A stretch of DNA of 36,445 bases from Desulfurivibrionaceae bacterium (lineage in GTDB: Bacteria; Desulfobacterota; Desulfobulbia; Desulfobulbales; UBA5123), in assembly GCA_030145325.1 (NCBI GenBank), contig JAQYVW010000029.1, positions 1-36,445 on the forward strand. The letters run 5' to 3'. Positions 1,117-35,258 of this stretch are shown piece after piece. The first letter of the stretch is position 1, and the number at the start of each line of letters is the position of its first letter. The notes beneath the pieces were generated by a model. It did no database searches. It was given only the letters and a program-made list of their open reading frames with translations, and was not told where the DNA came from. Position numbers and translations under genes: made by a program.

Positions 1117-1531
1117 GCCTCTCTTTGTTTCATCGTTTAAGATTGTTTGTTCCGGCTGGGCGGTAATCTATAAGAAAATAGCGCCTGTTAACCGCATGCC
1201 TGAAGGTCTTACCTCCGCCTTGCGTGTAGGATAAAAGGGGCAATTCGCTTATGCCGGGGAACAAGAGATCTACCCCATGTGGGAATCCACCGGGGCGATA
1301 TTTCACGAAATACGCAAAAAAAGCTGCACGAAGGGTTTCTGTAACCGGCAAAGGGATCAGGGCGTTATTGATGGGCGGGCGGTAGTCATTCGAAAAGGAA
1401 AAAGTTTTGGCACTGTTTGTTTTGTGTTTTATGGTCTTTTGCGTCATTCTGTACTGATCTTACGTTGCATTCGTTGTTGGGTTTTGGTGCCAAGAGGGGG
1501 CAGCGGTAAAGCCCGCCTTGTCCACTGTCTG
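1117..1531. other. Intergenic region, no gene supported
   Basis: This lies between the divergently oriented recombinase and pepN. Open frames here (for example about 1130-1447 on the minus strand) have low-complexity, non-family sequence, no convincing ribosome binding site, and overlap frames on the other strand. Promoters for both flanking genes should lie here, but I see no clear -35/-10 pair. The last part leads into the hairpin at 1532-1576. Confidence 0.5.
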
Positions 1532-1576
1532 TAATCGTAAGCCCGAGGAGTATTTCGCTTCTTGGGCTTACGATTA
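1532..1576 (+). repeat. Long perfect hairpin in the pepN leader
   Basis: TAATCGTAAGCCC (1532-1544) is matched by its exact reverse complement GGGCTTACGATTA (1564-1576). The inner bases continue the helix with G-U pairs (1545-1550 with 1558-1563), giving about 19 pairs around a 7-base loop. It ends 6 bases before the GGGAG ribosome binding site of pepN. No T-tract follows on the plus strand, so it is a weak fit to an intrinsic terminator. An mRNA-stabilising or translation-modulating hairpin, a protein-binding dyad or a REP-like unit are alternatives. Confidence 0.7.
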
Positions 1577-1593
1577 ATATTCGGGAGATGATC

Positions 1594-4242
1594 ATGGCTG
1601 TTGTGGAGAAGAAGGAACCGGTCTTTTTGCAGGATTATCAGTCGCCATCGTATTGGGTGGAGACGGTGGCCCTTCGTTTTGAGTTGGGCGAGGAGTCCAC
1701 CGTGGTCCGGGCTGATTTGGTTATCCGGCGGGACGACCAGGCGCGGGCGGATGCGCCGCTGGTTCTGGACGGGCAGGGGTTTGAGTTGCTGGCGGTGCGC
1801 ATCGATGGGCGAACTCTTGCTGAGAACGAGTATCTGGTGGAGCCGGAAACCTTGACCATTGCCACGGTGCCGGCCGCGTTTACCCTGGCGGTGGAAACCA
1901 GGCTGCAGCCCCAGCTCAACACCTCGCTGGAGGGGTTGTACCAGTCCAGCGGCAATTTTTGTACTCAGTGCGAGGCGCAGGGCTTTCGCCGCATCACCTA
2001 TTACCCTGACCGGCCCGATGTGATGGCCCGCTACACCACCACCCTTGTCGGCGACCGGGGGCGTTGTCCGGTGCTGCTGGCCAACGGCAACCTGGTGGAC
2101 AGCGGCGCATTGCCCGATAATCAGCATTTTGCGGTCTGGGAGGATCCCTTTCCCAAGCCCTCATATCTCTTTGCGCTGGTGGCCGGGGATCTCGGGGTGG
2201 TGCGGGATTCCTTCACCACCTGTTCTGGGCGGGCGGTGCGGCTGGAGATCTATGTTCAGCACCATAATCTCGATAAATGCGATCACGCCATGGCGTCGCT
2301 TAAAAAAGCCATGCGCTGGGATGAAGAGGTTTTCGGGCTTGAGTACGACCTTGATCAGTTCATGATCGTGGCCGTGGATGATTTCAACATGGGGGCCATG
2401 GAGAACAAGGGGCTGAACGTCTTCAACTCCAAGTACATCCTCGCCCGCCCGGAGACCGCCACCGACGACGATTATGATGGCATCGAGGGGGTGGTGGCGC
2501 ACGAGTACTTTCACAACTGGACCGGCAACCGGGTCACCTGTCGGGACTGGTTCCAGTTGAGCCTCAAGGAGGGGTTGACCGTTTTCCGTGATCAGCAGTT
2601 TTCCGGCGACATGGGCTCCAAGGCGGTGCAGCGGATCAACGACGTCCGGGTGCTGCGCAGCCGCCAGTTCCCAGAGGATTCCGGCCCCATGGCCCATCCG
2701 GTGCGACCGGCGTCCTACATCGAGATCAACAATTTTTATACGGTCACCGTTTACGAGAAGGGGGCAGAGGTGGTGCGGATGCTGCACACCATCCTTGGCG
2801 GAGAAGGGTTCCGGCGCGGCATGGATCTCTATGTGGAGCGGCACGACGGCCAGGCGGTGACCTGCGATGATTTTGTCGCGGCCATGGCGGATGCCAATCA
2901 GGTTGATCTGGGGCAATTCAAACGCTGGTACAGTCAGGCTGGGACCCCGGAGCTCACTATCACCTCCATCTATGATCAAGCGGCGGCGACCTGTACCCTT
3001 GTCGTTGCCCAACATTCACCTCCGACCCCGGACCAGGTGGAGAAGCTCCCCCTGCATATCCCGTTGGCGGTGGGGCTGCTCGACGGTAAGGGTGCGGATC
3101 TGCCCCTGCGGCTGGCCGGTGAAGGCGGCAACGATCTTGCCGGTGGGGTCTTGGCGGTGCGGGAGGAGCGGGAGGAGTTCTGCTTCGTGGGGGTCAACGA
3201 GAGGCCGGTGCTGTCGCTGCTGCGCAATTTTTCTGCGCCGGTGAAGGTTCGGTATGATTACAGCGATGACGAGCTCGCCTTTCTACTCACCCATGACCGT
3301 GATCCTTTCAACCGTTGGGAGGCCGGGCAGCGGCTGGCCTGCCGGATTATCCTGGGGTTGGTGGCGGAGTTTCGGCAAGGACGGGCGGGGGCGCTGCCCC
3401 TTTCCTTTGTGGCGGCCTTTCGGGCATTGTTGCTGGCGGCGGATAGCACTGACCAGACCTATTTGAGTCAACTCCTCACCCTGCCCGGCGAAGAGTATCT
3501 GGCCGAGCAGATGGCGGAGATCGATGTGGACAACATCCACGCGGCGCGGATGTTTGTCCGGCAAGGGTTGGCCCGTGTCCTGCGGGAGGAGTTTGCCGCC
3601 GTCTATGCTGCTAACCATGATTCTGGCCCCTATGCGCAGGATTCCAAGGCGGCCGGGCGACGGCGGCTGAAGAACTGTTGCCTTGCCTATCTGACCTGTC
3701 TCGACGAGCCCGCCCAGAATGATCTGGCCCTGGCCCAGTTCCGCAACAGCAATAATATGACCGATGCCTTGGGCGGCCTGGTGCCACTGGCGCATACCGA
3801 AAATGGGCTTCGCCGGGATGCCCTTGCGGCTTTTTATGAGCAGTGGCAACATGATCCGCTGGTGCTGGACAAGTGGTTTGCCATCCAGGCCACCGCGCCC
3901 TTGCCGGGAACCATTGCGGCGGTGCGGCAACTGCTGGCGCATCCCGCCTTTTCCATCAAGAATCCCAATAAGGTGCGGTCGCTGATCGGCGCCTTCGCCG
4001 GTGGCAACCCGGTCTGCTTTCACGCCGGTGACGGCTCCGGCTACCGGTTTCTTGCCGAGCAGGTTCTGGTCCTTGATGGGTTGAATCCCCAGGTGGCGGC
4101 GCGGATGGTGGCTTCGCTCAGTCGTTGGCACCGTTATGATGAAGGGCGGCAGGAGCTGATGCGCAAGGAGCTGGCGGGGATTCTCGCCGTGGAGACTCTT
4201 TCTAAGGATGTCTATGAGGTGGTTTCGAAGAGTTTACAGTAA
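1594..4242 (+). CDS. pepN: Aminopeptidase N (M1 zinc metallopeptidase)
   Basis: An 882-residue cytosolic aminopeptidase that removes N-terminal residues from peptides in protein turnover. The M1 signatures are intact: the GAMEN exopeptidase motif at about residue 267, and the zinc site H303-E-Y-F-H307 followed 18 residues later by E326 (LKEGLTV). The catalytic half is followed by the beta-sandwich and the long helical C-terminal domain, and the length equals that of E. coli-type PepN. An ATG at 1588 is also in frame, but it sits directly on the GGGAG ribosome binding site; the ATG at 1594 has normal spacing and is preferred. The gene is monocistronic, preceded by the hairpin, and its stop is only 2 bases from the stop of the convergent diguanylate cyclase gene. 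Confidence 0.96.
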   Translation: MAVVEKKEPVFLQDYQSPSYWVETVALRFELGEESTVVRADLVIRRDDQARADAPLVLDGQGFELLAVRIDGRTLAENEYLVEPETLTIATVPAAFTLAVETRLQPQLNTSLEGLYQSSGNFCTQCEAQGFRRITYYPDRPDVMARYTTTLVGDRGRCPVLLANGNLVDSGALPDNQHFAVWEDPFPKPSYLFALVAGDLGVVRDSFTTCSGRAVRLEIYVQHHNLDKCDHAMASLKKAMRWDEEVFGLEYDLDQFMIVAVDDFNMGAMENKGLNVFNSKYILARPETATDDDYDGIEGVVAHEYFHNWTGNRVTCRDWFQLSLKEGLTVFRDQQFSGDMGSKAVQRINDVRVLRSRQFPEDSGPMAHPVRPASYIEINNFYTVTVYEKGAEVVRMLHTILGGEGFRRGMDLYVERHDGQAVTCDDFVAAMADANQVDLGQFKRWYSQAGTPELTITSIYDQAAATCTLVVAQHSPPTPDQVEKLPLHIPLAVGLLDGKGADLPLRLAGEGGNDLAGGVLAVREEREEFCFVGVNERPVLSLLRNFSAPVKVRYDYSDDELAFLLTHDRDPFNRWEAGQRLACRIILGLVAEFRQGRAGALPLSFVAAFRALLLAADSTDQTYLSQLLTLPGEEYLAEQMAEIDVDNIHAARMFVRQGLARVLREEFAAVYAANHDSGPYAQDSKAAGRRRLKNCCLAYLTCLDEPAQNDLALAQFRNSNNMTDALGGLVPLAHTENGLRRDALAAFYEQWQHDPLVLDKWFAIQATAPLPGTIAAVRQLLAHPAFSIKNPNKVRSLIGAFAGGNPVCFHAGDGSGYRFLAEQVLVLDGLNPQVAARMVASLSRWHRYDEGRQELMRKELAGILAVETLSKDVYEVVSKSLQ

Positions 4243-14504: not shown

Positions 14505-17246
14505 CTAATTTTTCAAGGCCCCCTTCTTCAGCACTTCTCTGACAGTTTCTGCCATCTGTTGCCGTGAGACCGGTTTCATCAAAAACGATTTGATGCCCAT
14601 GGCTTGAGCTGATTCCTCGCTAACCAACGTGCTGTAGCCGGTGCAGAGGATGATCGGTATCTCTGGGCGGATGGCAAGGATTTGGCTCGCCAGCTCGGTG
14701 CCGGTCAAGTTCGGCATGGTTTGGTCGGTGAAGATAAGATCAAAGTCGGTGGGGTTATTTTTAAATTCCGTAAGTGCGGCCTGGCTGTCTTTCTCTGCCG
14801 TAACCCGGTAGCCAAGTCCTTCCAAAATGAGTTTTTCCGCGCGCAAAACAGGCTCTTCATCGTCAATACAGAGGATGTGTTCAGTTCCGGTGGGTAATTT
14901 TGTCGCCATGGCCGGGATTTTCTTTTTTAACTGAAGCTTCTCTGCGCTGGGGATATAAATGGCGAAGGTGGTTCCCTGGCCGATTTCGCTTTTCACCTGC
15001 ACCATTCCGTGCATTTCGCAAATAATCCCGTGGACGATTGCCAGCCCCAGGCCGGTGCCTCGCCCTTGTTCCTTGGTGGTGAAATAGGGTTCAAAGATAT
15101 GTAGGCGGGTTGTTTCGTCCATGCCGCAGCCGGTATCGCTGATGATGATTTCTATGAACTGGCCGGGCCTCAGGTCGCGGTAGGGCAACAGATCCTTAGC
15201 GGTTAACTCTTTGTTGGCAAGCTTAACGGTCAAAATGCCTTTTTCGTTTTCCATGGCGTGCACACCATTGGTACAGATGTTGATGATGATCTGCTGGAAC
15301 TTGGTTGGGTCGGCATGGATCATTCCGCAGTTGTTGCTGATCTCCTCATGGATTTCGATGGTGCTGGGCAGGGAGGCGCGGAGCAGTTTCAGCGATTCCT
15401 TGACCATGATCCCAGGGGTGAAAAAATCCTCGGTGCCGCTGCCCTTGCGACTGAAGGTGAGGATTTGGCGGACAAGATCAGTGGCTCTGTATCCCGCCTT
15501 GATCACTTCGGCGATCTGGCGGCTGGCGTCATCATTGTCGGCCACGGATTCTTCCACAAGTTCGGCATAGCCGAGAATGGGGGTAAGGAGGTTGTTGAAG
15601 TCGTGGGCGATGCCCCCGGCCAGAGTGCCGATGGCTTCAACCTTGTGCAGGTGCTGGAGCTGATTTTCCAGCTCCTTCTTTTCGTCATCTGATTGCTTGC
15701 GGCGGGTTATGTCCTGAACCGTGCCGATCATGCGGATTGGTTCGCCGGTGTGGTCGTACTCAACTTGGCCCCGTTCCTGAACGATGCGCTCCTCGCCATT
15801 GGGGCGGACAATGCGGTGTTCGATATCGTAATTGCGTCCGTGTGATAACGTTTCTTCCACCGCCCGTTGCACCAGTTCCCGATCCGCGGGATGGACGGAG
15901 TCGAGAAACCCCTCAAGTGAGGCATTGAACTGGGCAGGGGTGAGACCAAAGATGCGGTAAATCTCAGAAGACCACCAGAGGGAATTGTCAAGGATCTGCC
16001 ATTCCCAGCAGCCCAGGTGGGCGATCCTCTGTGCTTCTTGCAGCCGTCCATGGGCTTTTCTGGATAAAAGATTGGTGTGTTGTAATTCCTCGGTTCTTTT
16101 TTGCACCAAGGATTCCAGGTGTTGGCGGTGTTTCATCAGTTCCTTCTCTGCGGTCTGGCGTTTGCCGAGTTCTGATTGCAAAGCGGTTTGGACTTTTTTG
16201 ATCCTGCGGTTGAAGATGATGGCACAGAAGAGGGCTGCGAAGAGGAGGGCGAAAAGGAATATGATCACTATTCCTTCACGCCAACGATGTTCGACGAGAT
16301 CGGCCAGTGTTGCCTTGCCCATAGTAAGGTAGGGGCCGAGGTGTAATTCCCGCATCAGATCATGGATGGCAAGGTAGTCAAGGGGCACATCCCAACCGGT
16401 GATTTTGGCGTTAATGGCGGCTTTGCTGGTGGGCTCCATTCGCAGGAGAGCCTGGGTGACCAGTTTGGTCAGTTCCTTGGGGGTGTGCTGCGGTTTGGCG
16501 AACGGCCATTCCGGGTAGAGCGGCGTGCTGCGATAGTAGGGGAAGTTATGGTCTTGGGGTTGGGGGTTGATGATTCGGAAATCGTTGGCGGCGATGGAGC
16601 CATTCGCAAGCATTCGTTCCAGGGTATCGGTGCGGACAGTGCCGGCCGCGATTTTTTCAGATAAAACAGCGTGGACCACGTCATCGTGGGTTTCGCCGAA
16701 GAGGAGTTTGTCGAAATCATTTTCGGGGTCAATTCCCGCTTTTTTAAGCTCCCGCCAGGCCATCTGCCAGCCCCCTAAAGATCTTGGGTTAACGGCCATG
16801 AATGATTGCCCCTTCAGGTCGGCAATGGTTTTGAGATCTTTTCTGGCGATGGAGGTGAGGATGACACCGCCGAAGAGGCTGCTGCCTGTATTACCAATCC
16901 GGTTTTCCAGGGTGGCGATACGACTCACCTTGAACTTGGCTTCCAGCTCAACATAAAAACTGGGGTTGGTGATGAAAAAATCAAGTTGTTCCTGGCGCAC
17001 GGCCTCGTAAAGCTCCTTAAAATCCAGGGGGACGATGGTGAAGGTGTATGCAGGGATTTGGGTGGTGAGGTAATGCGCGGTGGCCGACCATTTTTGCCGG
17101 GCTATTGCCGGGCCGCGTTTGGCCAGAACGCCGATGGTTATCGTTTGGGAAGTGGAAAATGCTGTTTCGCCGCCCAACAGGGATGACAAAAGCAGGAGCA
17201 GAAAGATGGTGATTATTAATCTAAACGGTTGCTGTTCATGGTCCAT
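14505..17246 (-). CDS. Hybrid histidine kinase with fused PhnD-type sensor
   Basis: A 913-residue sensor: signal peptide (about 1-30), PhnD-like periplasmic binding domain (about 35-300, with QLDFFITNPSFYVELE), one membrane helix (about 322-345), a coiled coil (350-395), a PAS/PAC domain (about 400-515, DITRRKQ), HisKA with GGIAHDFNNLLTPILGY (phospho-His), HATPase with DTGCGMDE and GRGTGLGLAIV, and a C-terminal receiver with FTDQTMPNLTG (phospho-Asp) and the late Lys in LMKP. All phosphotransfer residues seem intact. No separate response regulator or Hpt is adjacent, so the output partner is elsewhere. It differs from the other PhnD system in this window, where the binding protein is a separate gene. 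Confidence 0.93.
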   Translation of the reverse strand: MDHEQQPFRLIITIFLLLLLSSLLGGETAFSTSQTITIGVLAKRGPAIARQKWSATAHYLTTQIPAYTFTIVPLDFKELYEAVRQEQLDFFITNPSFYVELEAKFKVSRIATLENRIGNTGSSLFGGVILTSIARKDLKTIADLKGQSFMAVNPRSLGGWQMAWRELKKAGIDPENDFDKLLFGETHDDVVHAVLSEKIAAGTVRTDTLERMLANGSIAANDFRIINPQPQDHNFPYYRSTPLYPEWPFAKPQHTPKELTKLVTQALLRMEPTSKAAINAKITGWDVPLDYLAIHDLMRELHLGPYLTMGKATLADLVEHRWREGIVIIFLFALLFAALFCAIIFNRRIKKVQTALQSELGKRQTAEKELMKHRQHLESLVQKRTEELQHTNLLSRKAHGRLQEAQRIAHLGCWEWQILDNSLWWSSEIYRIFGLTPAQFNASLEGFLDSVHPADRELVQRAVEETLSHGRNYDIEHRIVRPNGEERIVQERGQVEYDHTGEPIRMIGTVQDITRRKQSDDEKKELENQLQHLHKVEAIGTLAGGIAHDFNNLLTPILGYAELVEESVADNDDASRQIAEVIKAGYRATDLVRQILTFSRKGSGTEDFFTPGIMVKESLKLLRASLPSTIEIHEEISNNCGMIHADPTKFQQIIINICTNGVHAMENEKGILTVKLANKELTAKDLLPYRDLRPGQFIEIIISDTGCGMDETTRLHIFEPYFTTKEQGRGTGLGLAIVHGIICEMHGMVQVKSEIGQGTTFAIYIPSAEKLQLKKKIPAMATKLPTGTEHILCIDDEEPVLRAEKLILEGLGYRVTAEKDSQAALTEFKNNPTDFDLIFTDQTMPNLTGTELASQILAIRPEIPIILCTGYSTLVSEESAQAMGIKSFLMKPVSRQQMAETVREVLKKGALKN

Positions 17247-22749: not shown

Positions 22750-24861
22750 ATGCTTGAAACACTCTTCTTTGCAAAGACGGTCGCTGTCGTCGGCGCCTCC
22801 CGTACTCCCGGCAAGGTTGGGCATGATATTGTCCGTAATTTAGTGGCAGGCGGCTTTTTGGGAACTATTTTACCCATTAACCCTGCTGCTGCATCCGTAC
22901 TTGGCCTGCCCTGTCTGAAGAGCCCGCGGGACTATGATGGCAAGATTGATCTTTGCATCATAGTGGTGCCTCGACCGGTGGTCCTGGCCGCAGCCGAAGA
23001 ATCGATCAAGGCCGGCGCTGAAAGTCTGGTGGTGATTACCGCCGGCTTTAAGGAAATGAACCAGGAAGGGGCAGATCTCGAAAAACAACTTGTCAATTTG
23101 TGCAAAGCAAAAAGAGTACGCCTGCTTGGCCCCAACTGTTTGGGTTTTATCAATACCGAAAACAATCTCAACGCTTCCTTTGTCGGCAAGATGCCGATCA
23201 AGGGTGGCATTTCCGTTGTTTCACAATCTGGGGCATTGGCAACCGCGATCCTGGATCTTGCTGAAAGCCGTCATCTTGGTTTGGCAAAAATGGTGAGTAT
23301 CGGCAATAAGGCAGATCTATCAGAAGTGGATTTTTTGCGCATTTTGGCCCATGACGAACAAACCAAAGTCATCGTCGGTTATCTGGAAGACATCAGTTCC
23401 GGAGATGAATTCATTAAGACCGCCGAAGAAGCTTCCGCCAAGAAGCCGGTGATTATCTTGAAATCCGGGACCACTAAGGCGGGGATGAAAGCGGCCTCTT
23501 CCCACACCGGCGTTTTGGTGGGATCAGAAACTGCTTATGGCGCTGCTTTTAAACGGTCTGGTGTCGTGAGAGCCGATACCTTTGAAGCCCTTTTTGATTA
23601 TGCAACCGCCTTTGCCATGCAGCCGTTACCAAAAGGCAACCGGGTGCTGATCATCACCAATGCCGGTGGTCCTGGTACCATGGCGGCCGACGCGGTGGAA
23701 AAAGCTGGGATGCAGGTGGCGGAACTTGATCGCAACACCAATAGCGCCCTGCGGGAAAAATTACCTGGGGCCGCAAGTTATGGCAATCCAGTTGATGTTC
23801 TGGGCGATGCCGACCCGGATCGCTATGTCGCAGCCCTGATGGCCGCCCAAGATGACCCGGATGTTGACGCCATCATCATCATTCTTACCCCCCAGGCAAT
23901 GACCAGGGCCGCAGAAACCGCGCGCGCCATCGCCAACAACTTGACGGGCGGCAAACCGGTATTGGTTTCGTTCATGGGCGGGCAGGCGGTGATGCCTGGT
24001 CGAGAAGAGTTAGCGGCGGCAGGTTTGCCTGATTATGAATCCCCAGAACGGGCGGTGAACGCCTTGAAGGCGATGTATGAGTATGCCTCCTGGCATAACC
24101 GGCCGCCCCGGATTGTTACCCGTTTCCGAGTCAATAGACGCCGGGTGGAAAGGATAATTTCCCGACGTTTGCGCACTGGCCGTTTGCACATCGGTGAGGT
24201 TAAAGGCAAAAATATCTTGCAGGCCTATGGTTTCCAGATCCCTGACGGCCATTTGGCAACCTCCGCCGATGAAGCCATCGAAATCGCCAATTGCATCGGT
24301 TATCCGGTGGCCTTGAAGATTGTTTCCTCCGATATTGTTCATAAATCCGACCTGGGGGGGGTGCGCTTAAATATCTCCAGTCCCGGTGCCGTTGCTGATT
24401 ATTTTGATTTGATGATGATCCGGATTGGCCAACGCGCCCCTGATGCCTGGATTGAAGGGGTGTATGTTGAAAAAATGCTCAATCCCGGCCTTGAAGTTAT
24501 TATCGGCATGAGTCGCGATGCTCAATTTGGCCCCATGCTGATGTTTGGCCTGGGTGGAATTTTTGTAGAAGTCATGAAGGACGTCACGTTCTATTTAGCC
24601 CCGATCACTGAAAATGAAGCGGTGCAGATGCTTAAATCAACCAGATCCTACGAAATTCTCGAAGGTCGCCGCGGCCATAAAGGGGTTGATTTAACCGCCA
24701 TCGCCAATGGCTTGCAACGCATCAGTCAATTGACCACCGATTTTCCGCAAATTGCCGAGCTAGACATAAACCCTCTTATTGTCGGCGAGGTCGGTAACGA
24801 TCCTTGGGTTGCCGATGTGCGCCTGACCTTGCAACCTATTGAAGGAGGGGGGCAATCATGA
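22750..24861 (+). CDS. ADP-forming acetate/acyl-CoA ligase (fused alpha-beta)
   Basis: A 703-residue NDP-forming acyl-CoA synthetase. Order: CoA-binding Rossmann domain (VAVVGASRTPGKVG), two succinyl-CoA-ligase-like domains with the catalytic phospho-His region SSHTG (His252), then a C-terminal ATP-grasp domain (about 480-700, with YPVALKIVSSDIVHKSD). The family interconverts acyl-CoA + ADP + Pi and acid + ATP + CoA, often making ATP from acetyl-CoA in anaerobes. The acyl substrate cannot be told. The stop overlaps the next start by 4 bases (ATGA), so it is coupled to the CoA-transferase-GNAT gene. Protein acetyltransferases of the Pat type share this domain set, but here it is a separate polypeptide without GNAT. 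Confidence 0.92.
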   Translation: MLETLFFAKTVAVVGASRTPGKVGHDIVRNLVAGGFLGTILPINPAAASVLGLPCLKSPRDYDGKIDLCIIVVPRPVVLAAAEESIKAGAESLVVITAGFKEMNQEGADLEKQLVNLCKAKRVRLLGPNCLGFINTENNLNASFVGKMPIKGGISVVSQSGALATAILDLAESRHLGLAKMVSIGNKADLSEVDFLRILAHDEQTKVIVGYLEDISSGDEFIKTAEEASAKKPVIILKSGTTKAGMKAASSHTGVLVGSETAYGAAFKRSGVVRADTFEALFDYATAFAMQPLPKGNRVLIITNAGGPGTMAADAVEKAGMQVAELDRNTNSALREKLPGAASYGNPVDVLGDADPDRYVAALMAAQDDPDVDAIIIILTPQAMTRAAETARAIANNLTGGKPVLVSFMGGQAVMPGREELAAAGLPDYESPERAVNALKAMYEYASWHNRPPRIVTRFRVNRRRVERIISRRLRTGRLHIGEVKGKNILQAYGFQIPDGHLATSADEAIEIANCIGYPVALKIVSSDIVHKSDLGGVRLNISSPGAVADYFDLMMIRIGQRAPDAWIEGVYVEKMLNPGLEVIIGMSRDAQFGPMLMFGLGGIFVEVMKDVTFYLAPITENEAVQMLKSTRSYEILEGRRGHKGVDLTAIANGLQRISQLTTDFPQIAELDINPLIVGEVGNDPWVADVRLTLQPIEGGGQS

Positions 24862-26738
24862 GCAAGCAAAGAGAGATTCAAGGTGGCCAGGAAGATTGGC
24901 AGGATAAATATCGAGACATGATCTCAACCCCGCTCAATGCGGTAAAAAAAATAAAACCAGGGCAGCGTGTTTTTATCGGCACCGGCTGCGGGCAACCAAC
25001 TGAGCTGGTCAATGCACTTACCGCCAGGGCCAATGAGCTGGCTGACGTGGAAATCATTCAGCTTTTGACCAAAGGGGAAGCGCCTTACGCCAACCGGAAG
25101 CTGGCCGACAGTTTTACGGTGAACAGCTTTTTCATCGGCACCGCCATCCGCGGCCATATCCAAGAGGGATTAGGAGATTATACCCCGCTCCTGCTTTCTG
25201 ATATCCCGCGGTTATTCCATTCCGGGCAACTGCCTCTTGATGTGGTTTTAATTCATGTCACGCCGCCGGATAAGCACGGCCAGGTCAGTCTCGGAGTTTC
25301 AGTTGATATCGTCAAAAGTGCGGCAGAAAACGGCTCGCTGGTGATCGCCCAAGTAAATCCGCAGATGCCGAGAACAATGGGTGATAGTTCGCTTGACATC
25401 TATGATCTCGATATCTTGGTGCCGGTTGATATGCCTATCTTGGAGCGGGAGCAGTCTGCTCCCAACGAAGAAACATTGAAGATCGGCGAATATATCACCG
25501 GCTTGGTTGAAGATGATGCAACGGTTGAATTCGGCATCGGCAGAATTCCCCATGCCGTGGCGCATTTTCTTAAGGATAAAAAAAATCTAGGGATTCATAC
25601 GGAACTGCTGACCGATTCAATCATGGAGCTTGTGGAATGTGGCGCCGTCAATGGCTCCAGAAAATCTACCGACCGGGGTAAAGTTGTCGCCAGCTTCAGC
25701 ATGGGCAGCAAAAAATTATATGAATTTATTGATAACAATCCAATCGTTTGTTTTCGTCCCACGGAATATGTCAACGACACCCATGTGATCAGTAAGCAAC
25801 ATAAAATGGTCGCCATCAATACGGCTTTGGAAATTGACCTCACCGGCCAGGTCTGTGCCGATTCCCTTGGCGAAAGATTTTACTCAGGTATAGGTGGGCA
25901 GGTGGACTTTAATCGTGGCGCCGCCCTAAGTAAGGACGGCAAGGCCATTATCGCTCTGCAAGCCACCGCCCGAGAGGGGACTCGCTCACGGATTGTCACC
26001 CATCTCACCCCTGGGGCGGGAGTAGTTACCACCAGAGGTGAAGTGCACTATGTGGTGACCGAATATGGAGTGGCCTATCTCCATGGCAAAAGTGTCCATG
26101 AAAGGGCGTTGGCGCTGATCAGCATTGCCCATCCCCAATATCGGGAACAGCTGTTGAAAGAAGCGATAAAGGCTCATTATTTGCGCCAGGAAATGACTGA
26201 AGTCGAAGGTCGATTCGTGGTCGCCTCCAAGGAGATGGAGACAACCATGCTTCTTGATGACGGGATCCAGGTACGTTTCAGACCCGTTCATCCCACCGAT
26301 GAACCTCGCATGCGCGACCTGCACTATACCCTTTCCCAAGAAACTATCTATTACCGGTTTATGACCCATAAGACCCAATTCAGTCATCAGCAGGTGCAGA
26401 ATTTTGTCTATATCGATCACCGGCAAGACGTGGCCATTGTCGGCACCGTTCCCGAGGCGCACGGTGAAGATATTGTTGCCGTAGGCCGCTATTATCTTGA
26501 TCACAAATCGAACCGGGCCGAAGTGGCCTTTGTGATCCGCGACGATTGGCAGAACCACGGAATGGGTACCTTCTTATTTAAACACTTGGTTGCCTTGGCC
26601 AAAAGAAGTGGTATTGCTGGCTTTACCGCCGAAGTATTACGAGATAACCGGCGCATGCAATACATTTTCAACCACTGCGGCTTCAGTGTCAAAAGTGCCT
26701 TGGAGGACGATGTTTACAGCTTCAAGATAGATTTTTAG
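24858..26738 (+). CDS. Acetyl-CoA hydrolase/CoA-transferase fused to a GNAT acetyltransferase
   Basis: A 626-residue two-part protein. Residues about 20-450 are a CoA-transferase of the acetyl-CoA hydrolase/4-hydroxybutyrate CoA-transferase family, with EFGIGRIPHAV at about 224 and GIHTELLTDSIMELVECGAV. Residues about 465-626 are a GNAT domain (VRFRPVHPTDEPRMRDLHYTL at its start; acetyl-CoA loop QNHGMG at about 565) that resembles the GNAT domain of Pat-type protein lysine acetyltransferases. The transferase part moves CoA between acetate and other acids; the GNAT part should acetylate an amine, probably a protein lysine. Coupling to the acyl-CoA ligase and an HDAC-type deacetylase two genes upstream suggests a metabolic acetylation loop. 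Confidence 0.92.
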   Translation: MSKQREIQGGQEDWQDKYRDMISTPLNAVKKIKPGQRVFIGTGCGQPTELVNALTARANELADVEIIQLLTKGEAPYANRKLADSFTVNSFFIGTAIRGHIQEGLGDYTPLLLSDIPRLFHSGQLPLDVVLIHVTPPDKHGQVSLGVSVDIVKSAAENGSLVIAQVNPQMPRTMGDSSLDIYDLDILVPVDMPILEREQSAPNEETLKIGEYITGLVEDDATVEFGIGRIPHAVAHFLKDKKNLGIHTELLTDSIMELVECGAVNGSRKSTDRGKVVASFSMGSKKLYEFIDNNPIVCFRPTEYVNDTHVISKQHKMVAINTALEIDLTGQVCADSLGERFYSGIGGQVDFNRGAALSKDGKAIIALQATAREGTRSRIVTHLTPGAGVVTTRGEVHYVVTEYGVAYLHGKSVHERALALISIAHPQYREQLLKEAIKAHYLRQEMTEVEGRFVVASKEMETTMLLDDGIQVRFRPVHPTDEPRMRDLHYTLSQETIYYRFMTHKTQFSHQQVQNFVYIDHRQDVAIVGTVPEAHGEDIVAVGRYYLDHKSNRAEVAFVIRDDWQNHGMGTFLFKHLVALAKRSGIAGFTAEVLRDNRRMQYIFNHCGFSVKSALEDDVYSFKIDF

Positions 26739-28630: not shown

Positions 28631-29803
28631 ATGATCACCTTACTGAAAAACGTAAACATTTTTAGCCCGCAGCCCCTTGGCATCAAAGATGTACTGGTGG
28701 CAGGTGGGAAAATTGCCGCCATCATTGATGGCCACGATAAGGCTAAAAATTTGCCCCCCCAAAGTTGGGATGTCGAGGTGGTGGATTTTGGTGGGGCCTC
28801 TTTGCTGCCCGGCTTCATTGATAGCCACACCCATATTACCGGCGGTGGCGGCGAGGCGGGGTTTTCCACGCAGGTGCCATCGGTAGCGCTCTCACAATTC
28901 ACCGACGTTGGGGTAACAACCGTGGTCGGTTTGCTGGGTACCGATGACACCACCCGCAGTACCGGCAATCTCTTGGCCAGGGTCTATGGCCTCAGGGAAG
29001 AAGGTCTTTCGGCATATTGCTGGACCGGTGGTTACCATCTGCCCTTAACAACCCTCACCGGCAGCGCCAAATCAGACATTGTTTATCTGGAACCGGTTAT
29101 CGGCATTGGTGAGTTTGCCATCAGTGATCATCGTTCAAGTCAGCCGACCTACCAGGATGTCATTGGCTTGGTCGCGGAAGCCCACGTGGCAGGTTTGATG
29201 ACCGGTAAAGCCGGGGTTATGCACTTCCATCTTGGTGATGGCGAACGTGGTTTGGAGTTTATTGACCGAGCCATCGCCGAAACCGAGATTCCTGCTCGGG
29301 TGTTCCACCCCGCCCATGTCAATCGGAATAGAGACCTGTTTGCTGAGGCTTGTAAGCTGTTAAGCCGGGGCGGGTATATTGATATCACCGCCTTTCCCGA
29401 AGGGTCAGTGGAACCGGGCTTGGACGCACTGGAAGCGATCCAGATCGCGGTGGAGCGCAACCTCCCGTTGGAACGGATAACCATGAGCACCGACAGTGGT
29501 GGCTGCCTGCCCAGTTTTGATCGGCAGGGAACACTTCTGCGGATGGATTTTGCAAGTTCGCGGCCCATGTTGGCAACCCTGCAAGGGGCCCTTGGAGCTG
29601 GTTTGCCGCTGGAAACGGTGCTGCCGCTTTTTACCAGTAATGTTGCGGAGTTGTTGCGGTTGCAAAGTAAAGGAAAAATCAGCATGGGTCACGATGCCGA
29701 CCTGCTGGTACTTAATGAAAAATATGAGATTACAGACGTAATGGCCAAAGGGAAATGGCATAAACGTGATGGCAAGTCAGTAATTTACGGAACTTTTGAA
29801 TAG
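28631..29803 (+). CDS. iadA: Isoaspartyl dipeptidase
   Basis: A 390-residue amidohydrolase. Metal ligands are visible as H66-T-H68 (GFIDSHTHITGGGGE), then HFHLGDGERGL and HVNRN, and the last Asp in STDSGGCLP. The fold begins and ends with the usual beta-sandwich strands (VLVAGGKIAAI; DADLLVLNEKY). IadA splits beta-aspartyl dipeptides; beta-Asp-Arg is the product of cyanophycinase. Its position directly before cphB fits the final step of cyanophycin breakdown, releasing Asp and Arg. No strong ribosome binding site is seen. A MITE copy lies in its upstream region. Confidence 0.94.
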   Translation: MITLLKNVNIFSPQPLGIKDVLVAGGKIAAIIDGHDKAKNLPPQSWDVEVVDFGGASLLPGFIDSHTHITGGGGEAGFSTQVPSVALSQFTDVGVTTVVGLLGTDDTTRSTGNLLARVYGLREEGLSAYCWTGGYHLPLTTLTGSAKSDIVYLEPVIGIGEFAISDHRSSQPTYQDVIGLVAEAHVAGLMTGKAGVMHFHLGDGERGLEFIDRAIAETEIPARVFHPAHVNRNRDLFAEACKLLSRGGYIDITAFPEGSVEPGLDALEAIQIAVERNLPLERITMSTDSGGCLPSFDRQGTLLRMDFASSRPMLATLQGALGAGLPLETVLPLFTSNVAELLRLQSKGKISMGHDADLLVLNEKYEITDVMAKGKWHKRDGKSVIYGTFE

Positions 29804-29811
29804 AGGTGGTT

Positions 29812-30633
29812 ATGTGTCCAGCAAAAATTGCTGAAGGGGAACAACGCGGATTTGTTATTCCCATTGGCGGCGGCGAAGAGCGTCTTGAAGATCCGGTTAT
29901 TCTGCAACGATTTGTTGACATGTGTGGTGGCAAAGATGCCCATATCGTCATCATTCCCACCGCGTCTACCTTGGCGAAAACCGGCCCTAATTATGAAGTG
30001 GTTTTCAGTGAACTGGGCGCGAAAGTGACGGTTTCAGTACTGATAAACAGCAGGGACGATGCCCGGAACAGTGAATATCTGGAAGAGATAGAAAAGGCTA
30101 CCGGTATTTTTATGACCGGTGGCAATCAGCTGCGGCTCTCCACCATCTTGGGCGGCACTCCCGCAGCCCAGGCCATTCGGAGAGCAAATGCTGCCGGTGT
30201 CCATGTTGCCGGCACTTCGGCAGGGGCCGCAATCATGCCGGAACATATGATCGCCGGTGGCCCCACCGGTGCCTTGCCCAGTGAGCAGGGCGTGACCTTG
30301 GCACCAGGGATGGGTCTCATCAACAAACTGATCCTTGATCAACATTTCAGTCAGCGAAATCGCCTGGGACGTTTGTTGTCGGCTGTTTCCTACAACCCCT
30401 TTGCGGTGGGCATTGGCATTTGCGAGGACACCGCCGCGTTCATCGGCCCCGATGGGGTGCTGGAAGTCGTAGGTAGCGGCACCATTACCGTGATTGATCC
30501 GTCGGATCTGGAATACAGTTCCATGGCTGAAGCCCAGGAAGGAGAGTCCATCACCCTGATCGGTTTGAAACTGCATTTGCTCAGCAGTGGCGCCAAATAT
30601 GATCTTAGCTCCCGGCAGGCATCGCCATCCTGA
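29812..30633 (+). CDS. cphB: Cyanophycinase
   Basis: A 273-residue peptidase family S51 enzyme. The catalytic Ser is in GTSAGA (Ser136) with FMTGGNQLRLSTILGG before it and the typical DQHFSQRNRLGRL after it. There is no signal peptide, so it is the intracellular form. It cuts cyanophycin into beta-Asp-Arg dipeptides. A GTG at 29806 is also in frame, but the ATG at 29812 after AGAGGTGG is preferred. The gene starts 8 bases after the iadA stop. The length fits cytosolic CphB. Confidence 0.95.
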   Translation: MCPAKIAEGEQRGFVIPIGGGEERLEDPVILQRFVDMCGGKDAHIVIIPTASTLAKTGPNYEVVFSELGAKVTVSVLINSRDDARNSEYLEEIEKATGIFMTGGNQLRLSTILGGTPAAQAIRRANAAGVHVAGTSAGAAIMPEHMIAGGPTGALPSEQGVTLAPGMGLINKLILDQHFSQRNRLGRLLSAVSYNPFAVGIGICEDTAAFIGPDGVLEVVGSGTITVIDPSDLEYSSMAEAQEGESITLIGLKLHLLSSGAKYDLSSRQASPS

Positions 30634-30740: not shown

Positions 30741-33560
30741 ATGAAAATTACCTCTTCCAATGTCTACGTCGGGCCAAATGTTTATGCCCATTTTCCCGTT
30801 ATTCGTCACGTTGTTAGCTTAGGGATATTGGAGCAGTATCCGTCGGTGAAGCTCGGCGCTGCTTTTATTGAAGGGTTGATTGCCGCTTTGCCGGGCTTGC
30901 AGCAACACGGTTGTTCTCACGGCGTCGCCGGTGGTTTTATTCGGCGCTTAAGTGAAAATGAGGGCACCTGGGTGGCCCATATCTGGGAACATGTCATCCT
31001 TGAGCTACAATGCATGGCTGGCACGGAAGTAACCTTTGGCAAAACCCGGGGCACTGGCGAAGAGGGTTGCTATAACCTGATCTTTCAATATAAGCAGCGT
31101 GATGTTGGCTTGGAAGCTTCGAAATTGGCGAGAAAGATCCTTATCTCCTTGATGCCGGAAACCATTCAGGCGCAGCTGGATTCTAAGCTGGAGGATGATT
31201 TCAACTTCGATGATGAATTGTCCAATTTTATCCATTTTGCCCAACGCAAGGAGTTTGGCCCCAGTACCCAATCACTGGTCAATGCGGCTGAAGAACGTAA
31301 CATCCCCTGGTTGCGCTTAAACCAGTACAGCCTGGTGCAGTTTGGTCATGGCAAATATCAGCAACGTATTCAGGCGACCATTACCAGCCAGACCAACCAT
31401 ATTGCCGTGGAGATTTCCTGCGACAAGGAAGATACCCATCATCTCCTCAACGACCTGGGTTTGCCGGTGCCGCAGCAACGCATGGTCTATTCTGAGCAGC
31501 AGGCGATCAAGGCTGCCGAACGCATTGGCTATCCGGTGGTGATCAAGCCCTTGAATGCCAACCATGGCCGGGGCGTTTCCATCAACCTTACCGACAAAGA
31601 GCAGATTGCCGCAGCTTTCGCCTACGCCAAAAAGCACAGTACCAGTCGGGCAATCTTGGTGGAATCATTTCTCACCGGTTTGGATCACCGGATGCTGGTG
31701 GTGAATGGTGAACTGGTGGCAGTGGCCAAGCGGGTGCCGGGCCATGTTGTTGGTGATGGTAAGAGTACCATCGCCCAGTTGATCAATATTGTTAATTCGG
31801 ATCCTCGCCGAGGGGTCGGCCATGAAAAGGTGCTGACCCAACTGGAACTGGATACCCAGGCCATACGGTTGCTGGAAGAGGCAGGGTTTAGCGAGGAGAC
31901 GATCCTGCCGGCAGGAGAGATATTCTACCTGCGCTCCACTGCTAATCTGTCCACCGGTGGCACGGCCATCGATATGACCGATGTCTTGCACCCCGATAAT
32001 AAGGCCATGGCAGAACGGGCGGTAAACGCGGTTGGCCTGGATGTTGGTGGCGTTGATTTTTTGACTGCGGACATCACCAAATCCTACAAAGACATCGGGG
32101 GTGGCATTGTGGAGATTAATGCCGCCCCTGGCTTTAGAATGCATGTTTCCCCCAGTGAAGGCAAGCCTCGGGATGTTGCCGGGAAGGTCATGGACATGTT
32201 GTTCCCGCCCGCCTCGCCCGCTCGCATCCCCATTGCGGCTATCACTGGCACCAACGGCAAAACCACCACCTCCCGGATGTTGGCCCATATTCTTAAAACC
32301 GCAGGCCACGTGGTGGGAATGACCTCCACCGAAGGGGTATATGTTGATGGTCATCTCTCCGTGAAAGGCGACATGACCGGCCCGGTCTCTTCACAGATTG
32401 TCTTGCGCGATCCCTCCGTTGACATCGCGGTTCTGGAGACGGCCCGAGGCGGTATTTTACGTTCTGGGCTTGGCTATCGTGAAAGTGATGTATCCGCCTG
32501 TCTGAATATTCAACCCGATCATCTGGGCATGAAAGGGATCAATACCCTGGAGCAGTTGGCCGAGATCAAACGGATCGTGGTGGAAGTTGCCCAAGGAACG
32601 GCAGTGCTGAATGCCGACGATCCTCAATGCCTCAAAATGGCAGGTCACACCAACGCCAAGTATATCTGTTACGTCACCATGAACCCTGGTCACGGTCTGG
32701 TTCGGGAACATATCCGCGCCGGTGGCCGGGCCGTGGTCCTTGAACATGGGATCAACGGGGAGATGATTACCATCTTTGATAATGGCGCCCATATGCCCCT
32801 CCTCTGGACCCATTTGATCCCGGCGACCCTGGAAGGCAAGGCGACCCATAATGTCCAGAATGCCATGTTTGCTGCGGCCCTGGCCTATAGCTTGGACAAG
32901 CCCATTGGTGATATTCAGCATGGTTTGCGAACCTTTAGCACCACCTTTTTTCAGGCACCGGGGCGGATGAATGTTTATGACGAACATCCGTTCAAGGTTA
33001 TTCTGGATTACGCCCATAACCCTGACGGTATTCGTTATATGAGCGAATTGGCGAGTAAATTGGAGATTAAGGGGCGACGCATTGTGGTTATCGCCGGGCC
33101 CGGCGATCGCCGCGATGAAGATTTGCGGAATCTGGCCTGCGCCGCAGCCGGTCATTTTGATATCTATATTTGCAAGGCCGATGATAACCGCCGGGGCCGT
33201 GGTCATGATGAGGTACCCAAACTCATTGCCGAGGCATTAAAAGAAGAAAAGATCAGTGAGGATAATATTTTGATTATCCCCAGTGAAGTGGATGCCATCG
33301 ATAAAGCCTTGGGCATGGCGGCTGAGGATGATCTGGTGATGATTTTTGGTGACGCCATTACCCGTTGCTGGAAACAAATAATCACCTTTGGTGGCGATGC
33401 CCCAGTACAAGCAACCGAAAAGGAAAAACCGGTGCAAACGGTGGTCTCAATGCTGGACGCCAATCATCCCGATCCATTTGTCTTGGAGGCGGGGATGAAA
33501 ATCGTCAAAGATGAACGAGGGGTGCGGGTAGTTGCTGATTTAAATGAAGGCAGTGACTGA
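30741..33560 (+). CDS. cphA: Cyanophycin synthetase
   Basis: A 939-residue CphA1-type synthetase. It has an N domain (about 1-185, with VYVGPNVYAHFP and the AEERNIPWLRL/FGHG segment), an ATP-grasp domain (about 210-485, with VVIKPLNANHGRGVSI and the active-site IVEINAAPGFRMH) and a Mur-ligase-like domain (about 490-890, P-loop GTNGKTTT at about 503, LETARGGILRSGLG, DYAHNPDG). In this family the ATP-grasp part adds Asp to the backbone and the Mur part adds Arg to the side chain. Both active sites look intact. A C-terminal tail of about 40 residues beyond the Mur core is unusual. It is followed directly by a paralogue starting at the next base. Confidence 0.96.
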   Translation: MKITSSNVYVGPNVYAHFPVIRHVVSLGILEQYPSVKLGAAFIEGLIAALPGLQQHGCSHGVAGGFIRRLSENEGTWVAHIWEHVILELQCMAGTEVTFGKTRGTGEEGCYNLIFQYKQRDVGLEASKLARKILISLMPETIQAQLDSKLEDDFNFDDELSNFIHFAQRKEFGPSTQSLVNAAEERNIPWLRLNQYSLVQFGHGKYQQRIQATITSQTNHIAVEISCDKEDTHHLLNDLGLPVPQQRMVYSEQQAIKAAERIGYPVVIKPLNANHGRGVSINLTDKEQIAAAFAYAKKHSTSRAILVESFLTGLDHRMLVVNGELVAVAKRVPGHVVGDGKSTIAQLINIVNSDPRRGVGHEKVLTQLELDTQAIRLLEEAGFSEETILPAGEIFYLRSTANLSTGGTAIDMTDVLHPDNKAMAERAVNAVGLDVGGVDFLTADITKSYKDIGGGIVEINAAPGFRMHVSPSEGKPRDVAGKVMDMLFPPASPARIPIAAITGTNGKTTTSRMLAHILKTAGHVVGMTSTEGVYVDGHLSVKGDMTGPVSSQIVLRDPSVDIAVLETARGGILRSGLGYRESDVSACLNIQPDHLGMKGINTLEQLAEIKRIVVEVAQGTAVLNADDPQCLKMAGHTNAKYICYVTMNPGHGLVREHIRAGGRAVVLEHGINGEMITIFDNGAHMPLLWTHLIPATLEGKATHNVQNAMFAAALAYSLDKPIGDIQHGLRTFSTTFFQAPGRMNVYDEHPFKVILDYAHNPDGIRYMSELASKLEIKGRRIVVIAGPGDRRDEDLRNLACAAAGHFDIYICKADDNRRGRGHDEVPKLIAEALKEEKISEDNILIIPSEVDAIDKALGMAAEDDLVMIFGDAITRCWKQIITFGGDAPVQATEKEKPVQTVVSMLDANHPDPFVLEAGMKIVKDERGVRVVADLNEGSD

Positions 33561-35258
33561 ATGACCGCCATGGATATCAAGCTCAAATTAGATGACAGCA
33601 GACGTCTCACCGGCAAAAGCCTGCTCATGGATAACCCCGGTGCGATCATTGATGGTTTTGTCTCCGGGATCAGCAAAGAAGAGGTGGTGGCGCAGTGGCG
33701 TTTGTTTGCCCAACGTTTGCTGACTGAGCTGGGTTGGGAAAGTGAAGAGACGGTCTCGCGCATCTTTGAAGACGGCATTACTGTTGCCATCAGTGCGCCC
33801 ATGGACGCTCTTTATGCCGCCTGTGAACTTAACGAGGCGGCCTGGGAGTTTGCCTGTGCTGAATTCACCGGCAATTCGCGGGTAGAGGATTTTGACTCAG
33901 CGGTTACGCGGATCAGGAAGTGTGTCGATGAAGAGGTGAATCCTCCCTTATTGAACCTGATTAACGAGGCGGAACAAAGGAACGTCCCCTGGCTCAGTGA
34001 CGATGATAATTTTTCTCTTGGTCATGGCGTTGGTTCACAAGTTTGGCCGATATCGTCCCTGCCAGACCCCGCGCAATTGCCTTGGCAACAGTTTAAATCG
34101 GTGCCCATGGCGCTGGTTACCGGCACCAACGGCAAATCCACCACGGTGCGAATCCTCTCCCAAATGGTTAAAGAGGCTGGCAAGTGCTGTGGGGTGACCT
34201 CAACGGATTTTATTCGGGTGGGCGACAACGTCATTGATTATGGCGATTATTCCGGGCCGGGAGGGGCGCGAATCCTGCTCCGCCACCCAAACACGGAAGC
34301 TGCTATTCTCGAAGTTGCCCGTGGCGGTATCTTACGCCGGGGCTTGCCGGTAGATCGCGTTGATGCAGCCCTCATCACCAATATTGCCGCCGACCATTTA
34401 GGTCAGTACGGGATCAACACCGTTGCCGCTTTGGCCAAAGCCAAGGCGGTGGTTGCCAAAGCTCTCAGCTCCGGCAACCTGGTCTTAAATGCTGATGATG
34501 AGCAGTTGGTCAACCTGGCTCCAGAATTGCCGGTTAACAAGTGCTGGTTTTCTCTTAATCAAGACCATCCGGTTATCGAGGCCCATCGGGACCAGGGCGG
34601 AGCTGTCTGCTTTCTCCATAACGGCTGGCTGGTTTATGCCGACGATCAGGAAGAAGTTGAAATCATCGCCGTCAATGATATCCCCATGACCTTAAACGGT
34701 GCTGCCCGCCATAATATCCACAATGCCTTGGGGGCGCTCGGGATTGCTAAAAGCCTGGGTATTGATAACAAATCCATTGCCATGGCATTGCGTCAATTCT
34801 CCAGCAGTGTTGAAGATAATCCTGGCCGCGGCAACCAGTTTGAGGTCAACGGGGGCACGGTGATAATGGATTTTGCCCACAACGTCCACGGGATGGATGC
34901 CATGGCGGCTACGGTTGCCAATATGCCAGCCCAGCGGAAGTTTCTGATGTTGAGCATGGCCGGTGATCGCAGTGATCAGGACATCCGAGAGTCTACTCAG
35001 TCCGCCCTGGCAATGGGGCCGGATATTCTGGTGGCGGCTGATTTGGAGATCTACCTGCGGGGGCGGCAACCGGGTGAAGTCCCCAAGCTCATCGCTGATG
35101 CCGCGCACGCCTGCGGAATGCCAAAGGAAAACATCATTGTTGTCGACAGCCCTTATGCGGGGGCTAAACTGATTGTCGAGCGATTGCAGGTTGAGGATCT
35201 TGCCCTCTTGCTGGCCCTTTCCCATCGAGATGAAATTATTAAGTTGCTCAGGCGATGA
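33561..35258 (+). CDS. CphA-like Mur ligase lacking the ATP-grasp domain
   Basis: A 565-residue paralogue of the preceding synthetase. The N domain is present (about 1-165; INEAEQRNVPWLSDD and SLGHG match the CphA segment that leads into its ATP-grasp part). The Mur-ligase domain follows at once, with P-loop GTNGKST at about 188, LEVARGGILRRGL, NIAADHLGQYGI and DFAHNVHGMD. The roughly 280-residue ATP-grasp module is missing, with a short Pro/Gln linker in its place, so this is not a frameshift or truncation. It should still activate a carboxylate with ATP and ligate an amine, but cannot add backbone Asp by the usual route. The start codon abuts the cphA stop. Function is unknown; a helper of CphA or an enzyme making a modified polymer are options. 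Confidence 0.88.
   Translation: MTAMDIKLKLDDSRRLTGKSLLMDNPGAIIDGFVSGISKEEVVAQWRLFAQRLLTELGWESEETVSRIFEDGITVAISAPMDALYAACELNEAAWEFACAEFTGNSRVEDFDSAVTRIRKCVDEEVNPPLLNLINEAEQRNVPWLSDDDNFSLGHGVGSQVWPISSLPDPAQLPWQQFKSVPMALVTGTNGKSTTVRILSQMVKEAGKCCGVTSTDFIRVGDNVIDYGDYSGPGGARILLRHPNTEAAILEVARGGILRRGLPVDRVDAALITNIAADHLGQYGINTVAALAKAKAVVAKALSSGNLVLNADDEQLVNLAPELPVNKCWFSLNQDHPVIEAHRDQGGAVCFLHNGWLVYADDQEEVEIIAVNDIPMTLNGAARHNIHNALGALGIAKSLGIDNKSIAMALRQFSSSVEDNPGRGNQFEVNGGTVIMDFAHNVHGMDAMAATVANMPAQRKFLMLSMAGDRSDQDIRESTQSALAMGPDILVAADLEIYLRGRQPGEVPKLIADAAHACGMPKENIIVVDSPYAGAKLIVERLQVEDLALLLALSHRDEIIKLLRR

Follow-up and report, generated by a model that had tools for sequence, protein, structure and literature searches.

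We found that the gene directly downstream of cphA encodes a stand-alone Mur-type ligase, hereafter Mur2, which has conserved catalytic residues and which co-occurs near-obligately and coevolves with one clade of the cyanophycin synthetase CphA. Exactly those CphAs carry a C-terminal tail that ends in an invariant Asp. Our leading, though tentative, reading is that Mur2 is an active ATP-dependent ligase working in trans with this CphA clade, that the last Asp of the tail would be its acceptor, and that CphA may be self-primed. The tail had been missed by the initial annotation of this DNA, and it changes the most likely mechanism. Cyanophycin is a nitrogen-storage polymer with an aspartate building block and is of industrial interest. 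In CphA1, the ATP-grasp (G) domain adds the backbone Asp and the Mur domain adds Arg to the side chain of the C-terminal Asp; to our knowledge, the start of the chain is still poorly understood.

In the window (the whole stretch of DNA that was analysed, 36,445 nucleotides), iadA, cphB, cphA and mur2 are four genes in a row on one strand (+), and the ATG of mur2 abuts the TGA of cphA (33558-33560), as initially described:

28631-29803, + strand: iadA, isoaspartyl dipeptidase (TIGR01975 score above the cut-off)
29806-30633, + strand: cphB, cyanophycinase (TIGR02069 score above the cut-off)
30741-33560, + strand: cphA, full-length cyanophycin synthetase of 939 aa, with the N-domain motif C58...H80xxE83H84 and with G and Mur active-site motifs intact
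33561-35258, + strand: mur2, stand-alone Mur-type ligase of 565 aa, consisting of a CphA N domain, a G-domain stub and a Mur ligase, without the ATP-grasp core
33561-33935, + strand: diverged CphA-type N domain, Mur2 residues 1-125 (AF2 model, Foldseek), without the Cx19HxxEH zinc-peptidase motif
33936-34046, + strand: stub corresponding to the start of the CphA G domain, Mur2 residues 126-162, NPPLLNLINEAEQRNVPWL...GHG

These four genes were the only ones that recurred widely among the loci compared. Cyanophycin clusters with cphB, cphA and iadA have already been described (PMC10206079), and relatives of Mur2 bear the annotation 'Mur ligase family protein'. Elsewhere in the window, we noted a 913-aa hybrid sensor kinase (14505-17246, - strand) whose N-terminal periplasmic binding domain is of the phosphonate type and which also has PAS, histidine kinase and receiver domains, and an ADP-forming acyl-CoA synthetase-like protein (22750-24861) adjoining an acetyl-CoA hydrolase/transferase with a fused GNAT acetyltransferase domain (24858-26738).

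Mur2 was initially described as a CphA paralogue devoid of the ATP-grasp module, and profile searches bore this out. Pfam matched only Mur_ligase_M and Mur_ligase_C in Mur2, and the alignment to TIGR02068 began at profile position 474 and covered the Mur part only (score 372 vs a cut-off of 850); Mur2 therefore lacks the ATP-grasp core, and Pfam and profile searches of the protein gave no ATP-grasp match, let alone a complete fold of that kind. The neighbouring CphA matched the N domain, ATP-grasp and Mur domains. BLASTP aligned Mur2 to this CphA with 36% identity over residues 181-530 (E 5e-63) and returned a second, short N-terminal match (INEAEQRNVPWL / VNAAEERNIPWL and LGHG / FGHG). The CphA stretch skipped in the alignment runs from about residue 209 to 496, close to the jump of about 280 residues first proposed. 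The short matching segments, which had been read as an alignment through the N domain, are real but lie at the beginning of the G domain, which in TeCphA1 comprises residues 162-487 (PMC9427784).

The initial annotation also held that the N domain was kept, and structure prediction agreed with this. Pfam PF18921 did not match the N domain of Mur2 (about residues 1-115), whose sequence is too diverged, and a profile comparison built on few sequences (16 and 15) detected the G-domain stub only and no N domain. However, the AF2 model of residues 1-178 had a mean pLDDT of 84, and its 14 highest-ranking Foldseek hits among 350,542 solved chains were all CphA1 or CphA2 (best E 5.5e-5), with the CphA2 structure 8fxh among the closest folds. 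A deeper profile comparison of Mur2 residues 9-160 with CphA gave an E of 1.5e-5 and a probability of 80%. Claims on the fold are drawn from the N-terminal model, as the full-length AF2 model is poor in the Mur core (pLDDT <50 over residues 181-305). By this model and the deeper comparison, Mur2 retains a CphA-type N domain although Pfam misses it. The zinc-peptidase motif of this domain (Cx19HxxEH), which makes primers in CphA1 (PMC9262961), was absent from Mur2 and its relatives in the alignment.

The catalytic motifs GTNGKST, LEVARGGILRRG and DFAHN, said at the outset to be kept, are all present in Mur2. Among 42 relatives (a non-redundant set, <95% identical), Asn190 and Lys192 of the P-loop, Glu251, Asp278-His279, Arg423, Asp437, His440 and Arg470 were invariant (42/42), so that Mur2 holds the P-loop Lys, Mg-binding Glu, Asp-His, Arg and His of a Mur ligase (M) domain. 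The sites discussed below are located as follows:

34122-34139, + strand: Mur P-loop GTNGKS, Mur2 residues 188-193, with Asn190 and Lys192 invariant in 42 relatives
34242-34256, + strand: GDYSG loop, residues 228-232, whose Tyr230 is common to actinobacterial stand-alone ligases and is not the CphA consensus
34392-34397, + strand: catalytic Asp278-His279 of the DHLG motif, invariant (42/42) and equivalent to SuCphA1 D585/H586
34962-34976, + strand: GDRSD, residues 468-472 (CphA consensus GDRRD)
35052-35066, + strand: YLRGR, residues 498-502 (CphA consensus DDxxRGR, where the loop is shorter)

The Asp-His pair of the DHLG motif is catalytic in SuCphA1 (PMC9262961). At the changed sites, Mur2 and its relatives have GDYSG, NPGR, GDR[S/T]D and YLRGR, which is the consensus of no CphA group, CphA having mostly GD(M/C)xGP, xPGR, GDRRD and DDxxRGR; one deep lineage (L228) deviates at some of these signature sites, with NRGR and GDRK. 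The C-terminal domain of Mur ligases binds the incoming amino acid. Judged from these residues, Mur2 looks like an active, conserved enzyme with predicted activity, and its donor or acceptor is likely to be different, since the ATP machinery is kept and the presumed amino-acid-site residues are changed. A side chain other than Arg would be compatible with the changed residues of the Mur C-terminal domain.

We observed that mur2 and cphA are strongly associated across genomes. The pairing of cphA with an ATP-grasp-less ligase, for which the initial annotation had suggested a search, was recovered in three samples. In one densely sampled order, 69 of 200 genomes carried 70 copies of mur2, 63 of which immediately followed a full-length cphA in the same orientation; three were truncated by contig ends and four were non-adjacent, with cphA at a different place in three genomes and a contig-edge CphA fragment in the fourth. 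All nine mur2 genes of a Gammaproteobacteria sample adjoined cphA, as did those of the seven Mur2-bearing genomes among 397 Pseudomonadota (7/7, the neighbouring CphA having about 940 residues); another 30 genomes of the latter set had CphA-type matches without Mur2. A search of plasmids returned cphA-mur2 pairs from alphaproteobacteria and Roseateles, and a search of phage records returned weak matches to the Mur part only. The abutting codons had suggested that the two proteins are made in a fixed ratio, a proposal that fails across the family: the distance between the genes ranges from -4 to +339 nt among relatives, and they are unlinked in three genomes. In the window and its relatives, the family is recognized by a stand-alone protein of N domain plus Mur ligase whose gene accompanies that of an Asp-tailed CphA or at least occurs in the same genome. 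Further CphA-like Mur-domain proteins were seen outside the pair (L076 and L077 (G703); G952:C117, G952:C67, G1023:C44, G1023:C111, G983:C35 and G1018:C221); their open frames span 660-900 residues and score low against the partner profile, and they are possibly other CphA-type paralogues.

Phylogenetic comparisons revealed that the CphAs with a Mur2 partner form one clade (99*), and that in a Mur-domain tree the Mur2 proteins lie on one side of a branch, apart from every CphA. Therefore, mur2 is not a recent truncated copy or deletion product of the adjacent cphA. The distance matrices of 39 CphA-Mur2 pairs were correlated with r = 0.89, against a maximum of 0.27 in 2000 permutations, with Mur2 evolving about 2.1-fold faster than its CphA. 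Within the window's own phylum, Mur2 was found in 1 of 198 genomes, and also in a second Desulfobulbaceae bin (L016/L062/L063). Both proteins of the window group with Colwellia in their respective trees, which points to a probable transfer of the pair from Gammaproteobacteria into this lineage. The CphA of Octadecabacter, nearest to that of Colwellia, is assigned to group IV of Fuser and Steinbuchel in PMC3646047. Invariant catalytic residues, near-complete co-occurrence with one CphA clade and mirrored trees support well the initial proposal of a dedicated ligase or CphA partner. A decaying cphA duplicate that has lost its middle would account for the missing domain and the faster evolution and for nothing else; the residues invariant in 42 relatives, the frames open in nearly all of them and the deep separate clade, with no sign of sporadic decay, leave this reading virtually no credence.

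The CphAs of the pair differ from all others examined by a C-terminal tail, which in the window is arranged as follows:

33387-33557, + strand: C-terminal tail of CphA, about residues 883-939, a variable linker and a conserved end, found only in the CphA clade with Mur2
33510-33521, + strand: tail element DERG at CphA residues 924-927
33546-33557, + strand: C-terminal ExxD (EGSD), CphA residues 936-939 (Asp at -1 and Glu at -4)

In the tail, a variable linker is followed by a DERG-like element and an ExxD end (e.g., LIRDERGVRLAREEESD), and the tail of the window CphA ends at 33557 with ...KDERGVRVVADLNEGSD. Among 83 distinct tails, the last residue was Asp in all (83/83) and the residue at -4 was Glu in 82. 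The tail was present on every CphA with a Mur2 partner, linked or not, and on no other CphA examined; none of 37 tail-less CphAs ended in Asp (a 38th entry of that list, L068, is a Mur2 partner protein and was left out). As tail and partner coincide on one branch, their association represents a single evolutionary event rather than many, which counts against the mechanism proposed below. Two genomes were not counted as clear exceptions: G1063, with a tail and no Mur2 found, has a fragmented CphA, and G1058 is truncated by the end of its contig. In the deep lineage L228-L231, the element reads DESG or DERG and the last four residues are EDND, EEND or EDAD. A search of solved structures returned no CphA with the tail.

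Since the distance from the DERG-like element to the C-terminus varies from 9 to 12 residues, it is the terminus itself that is conserved. The last Asp is encoded by GAC in 50 cases and GAT in 33, and Glu at -4 is likewise encoded by both of its codons. Furthermore, the same end is found where 60-339 nt separate cphA from mur2 (13 cases) and where the two genes are unlinked (L098, L099 and L100). The use of both codons and the conservation at a distance indicate that the protein is conserved rather than a ribosome-binding site, which rules out a Shine-Dalgarno sequence or a stop/start overlap as the cause. The Mur-domain motifs of CphA are intact in all genomes with the pair, so Mur2 does not replace a dead CphA Mur domain. 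The HxxEH motif of the N domain is also present in the paired CphAs. In the window CphA (30912-30992), as in the rest of the clade, the zinc motif has 21 rather than 19 residues between Cys58 and His80.

These observations suggest that Mur2 and the Asp-tailed CphA may together start or decorate the polymer. In the mechanism that we propose, Mur2 would ligate an amino acid onto the carboxylate in the side chain of CphA's last Asp. The charged C-terminus would resemble the growing end of cyanophycin and could be extended there by the G and M domains, CphA being its own primer, and the N-domain peptidase could later release the chains. The M domain of CphA requires an acceptor with an unmodified C-terminal Asp (PMC9427784), the chain grows at its C-terminus, and unprimed first steps are very slow (PMC9262961); for these reasons, CphA would be a primer if Mur2 modifies its last Asp. 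That Mur2 engages the tail with the C-terminal Asp as acceptor is what we infer, and so is the reaction itself with the amino acid that it adds; an acceptor is favored over a docking site because Asp is strict and not replaced by Glu, although its spacing from the DERG element changes. A conserved C-terminus may nevertheless serve for docking and not as a substrate, and actinobacterial CphAs that have their own stand-alone ligases lack the Asp-ended tail, so that stand-alone ligases in general can do without it. Furthermore, a further route to priming would be in part superfluous, as the paired CphAs keep the primer-making N domain. The wider view, that cyanophycin synthesis is protein-primed in these bacteria, with Mur2 charging the invariant C-terminal Asp and the polymer growing on CphA, and that stand-alone Mur ligases are an old family with a reaction of their own, seems to us doubtful as a whole. 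The likeness to glycogenin, which primes glycogen, would be one of working only, that of a protein bearing the start of its own storage polymer, and is hypothetical here; that protein and its chemistry are unrelated to CphA and Mur2.

Alternatively, the tail may be a docking peptide only, which would hold Mur2 beside CphA while it adds a second side chain such as lysine to the polymer Asp, so that the product would not be plain cyanophycin. This combines the side chain beside Arg of the initial annotation with a docking site, and we regard it as possible and nearly as likely as the tail serving as acceptor. The GDR[S/T]D, YLRGR and NPGR sequences of the Mur C-terminal domain, which depart from the consensus of CphA and are common to actinobacterial stand-alone ligases, argue for it, and lysine side chains occur in cyanophycin from recombinant hosts, according to work cited in PMC5178258. 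The same aldehyde dehydrogenase family (F4) is found upstream at two Rhodobacterales-type loci, L018 and L056, and at the first of these (Ruegeria, 966-3587) a saccharopine-dehydrogenase-like gene also precedes cphB-cphA-mur2, a possible hint of lysine. However, such lysine-type genes do not recur at other loci, and genome context was dropped as a guide to the added amino acid, which cannot be read from the sequence. Pure docking also explains poorly why the last residue is invariably Asp.

It is unlikely that Mur2 is an extra arginine side-chain ligase, or a structural component of CphA by which rate or chain length is adjusted while the chemistry stays the same. Its domain family and ATP machinery are those of the CphA M domain and it is encoded with CphA, but every genome with the pair has an intact M domain, which makes an extra Arg ligase unneeded, and the changed active-site residues point to another substrate. 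More improbable still is an action on small molecules, for example the joining of an amino acid to free aspartate to give either a primer in the form of a soluble dipeptide or a building block for reuse. A stand-alone ligase would need no polymer machinery for this, CphA1 slowly makes beta-Asp-Arg from free amino acids (PMC9262961), and the tail-less actinobacterial pairs would be covered as well, yet the conserved tail and the mirrored trees would be left unexplained. The tail Asp as acceptor of Mur2 is the reading that we tentatively prefer.

At loci of Actinomycetota (L212, L215, L219, L222, L223, L224 and others), we found beside CphA stand-alone Mur ligases that lack ATP-grasp and belong to a family of their own. 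Like Mur2, these proteins of about 570-630 aa combine an N-domain-like start (LRVLDGPNLYF) with a Mur ligase and share active-site states with it; unlike Mur2, they form a separate clade, are often convergent with cphA and accompany CphAs without the Asp tail. Several of these CphAs have a different conserved tail motif, GGDPDL. In a quick search, the Mur-domain tree placed both stand-alone families opposite all CphAs (97% SH-aLRT). We found no name for the actinobacterial ligases.

Mur2 also differs from the characterized enzymes. CphA1 (TIGR02068) has a homologous Mur ligase domain with all ATP-site residues and the same N-domain fold, whereas Mur2 lacks the ATP-grasp core and HxxEH and has GDRSD where CphA1 has GDRRD, and YLRGR where it has DDxxRGR. 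CphA2 is likewise a CphA paralogue of reduced function without the N-domain motif (PMC9262961), but it keeps an active ATP-grasp domain beside a reduced or dead Mur domain and polymerizes beta-Asp-Arg; Mur2 is the reverse, with the opposite domain content. The middle and C-terminal domains of a Mur ligase are shared with MurE, yet the N-terminal domain of Mur2 is CphA-like instead of UDP-binding, and its scores against MurE/MurCDEF, defined by a UDP-MurNAc-binding N-terminal domain, were far below the cut-offs. Two cphA-type genes also lie side by side in Betaproteobacteria such as Accumulibacter and Sideroxydans ('CphA1/CphA2'), but these are described as two cyanophycin synthetases or two cphA copies (PMC10687191, PMC5178258). 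The adjacent double-cphA pairs seen here consist of two long frames (857/907 aa in G270 and 924/892 aa in G334), and the copies examined have no tail.

Among the open papers searched for priming, stand-alone ligases and paralogues, none was found to describe the partner ligase or the CphA tail. The 2007 survey of Fuser and Steinbuchel, cited in PMC3646047 and outside that set, may list Mur2-type genes as ligase-like proteins. A partner ligase together with an Asp-ended tail borne only by its synthetases offers a testable answer to the question of how the chain starts. Furthermore, many 'cyanophycin' clusters in Proteobacteria and Actinobacteria hold a second ligase annotated merely as 'Mur ligase family protein', and for this reason their polymer may differ from textbook cyanophycin.
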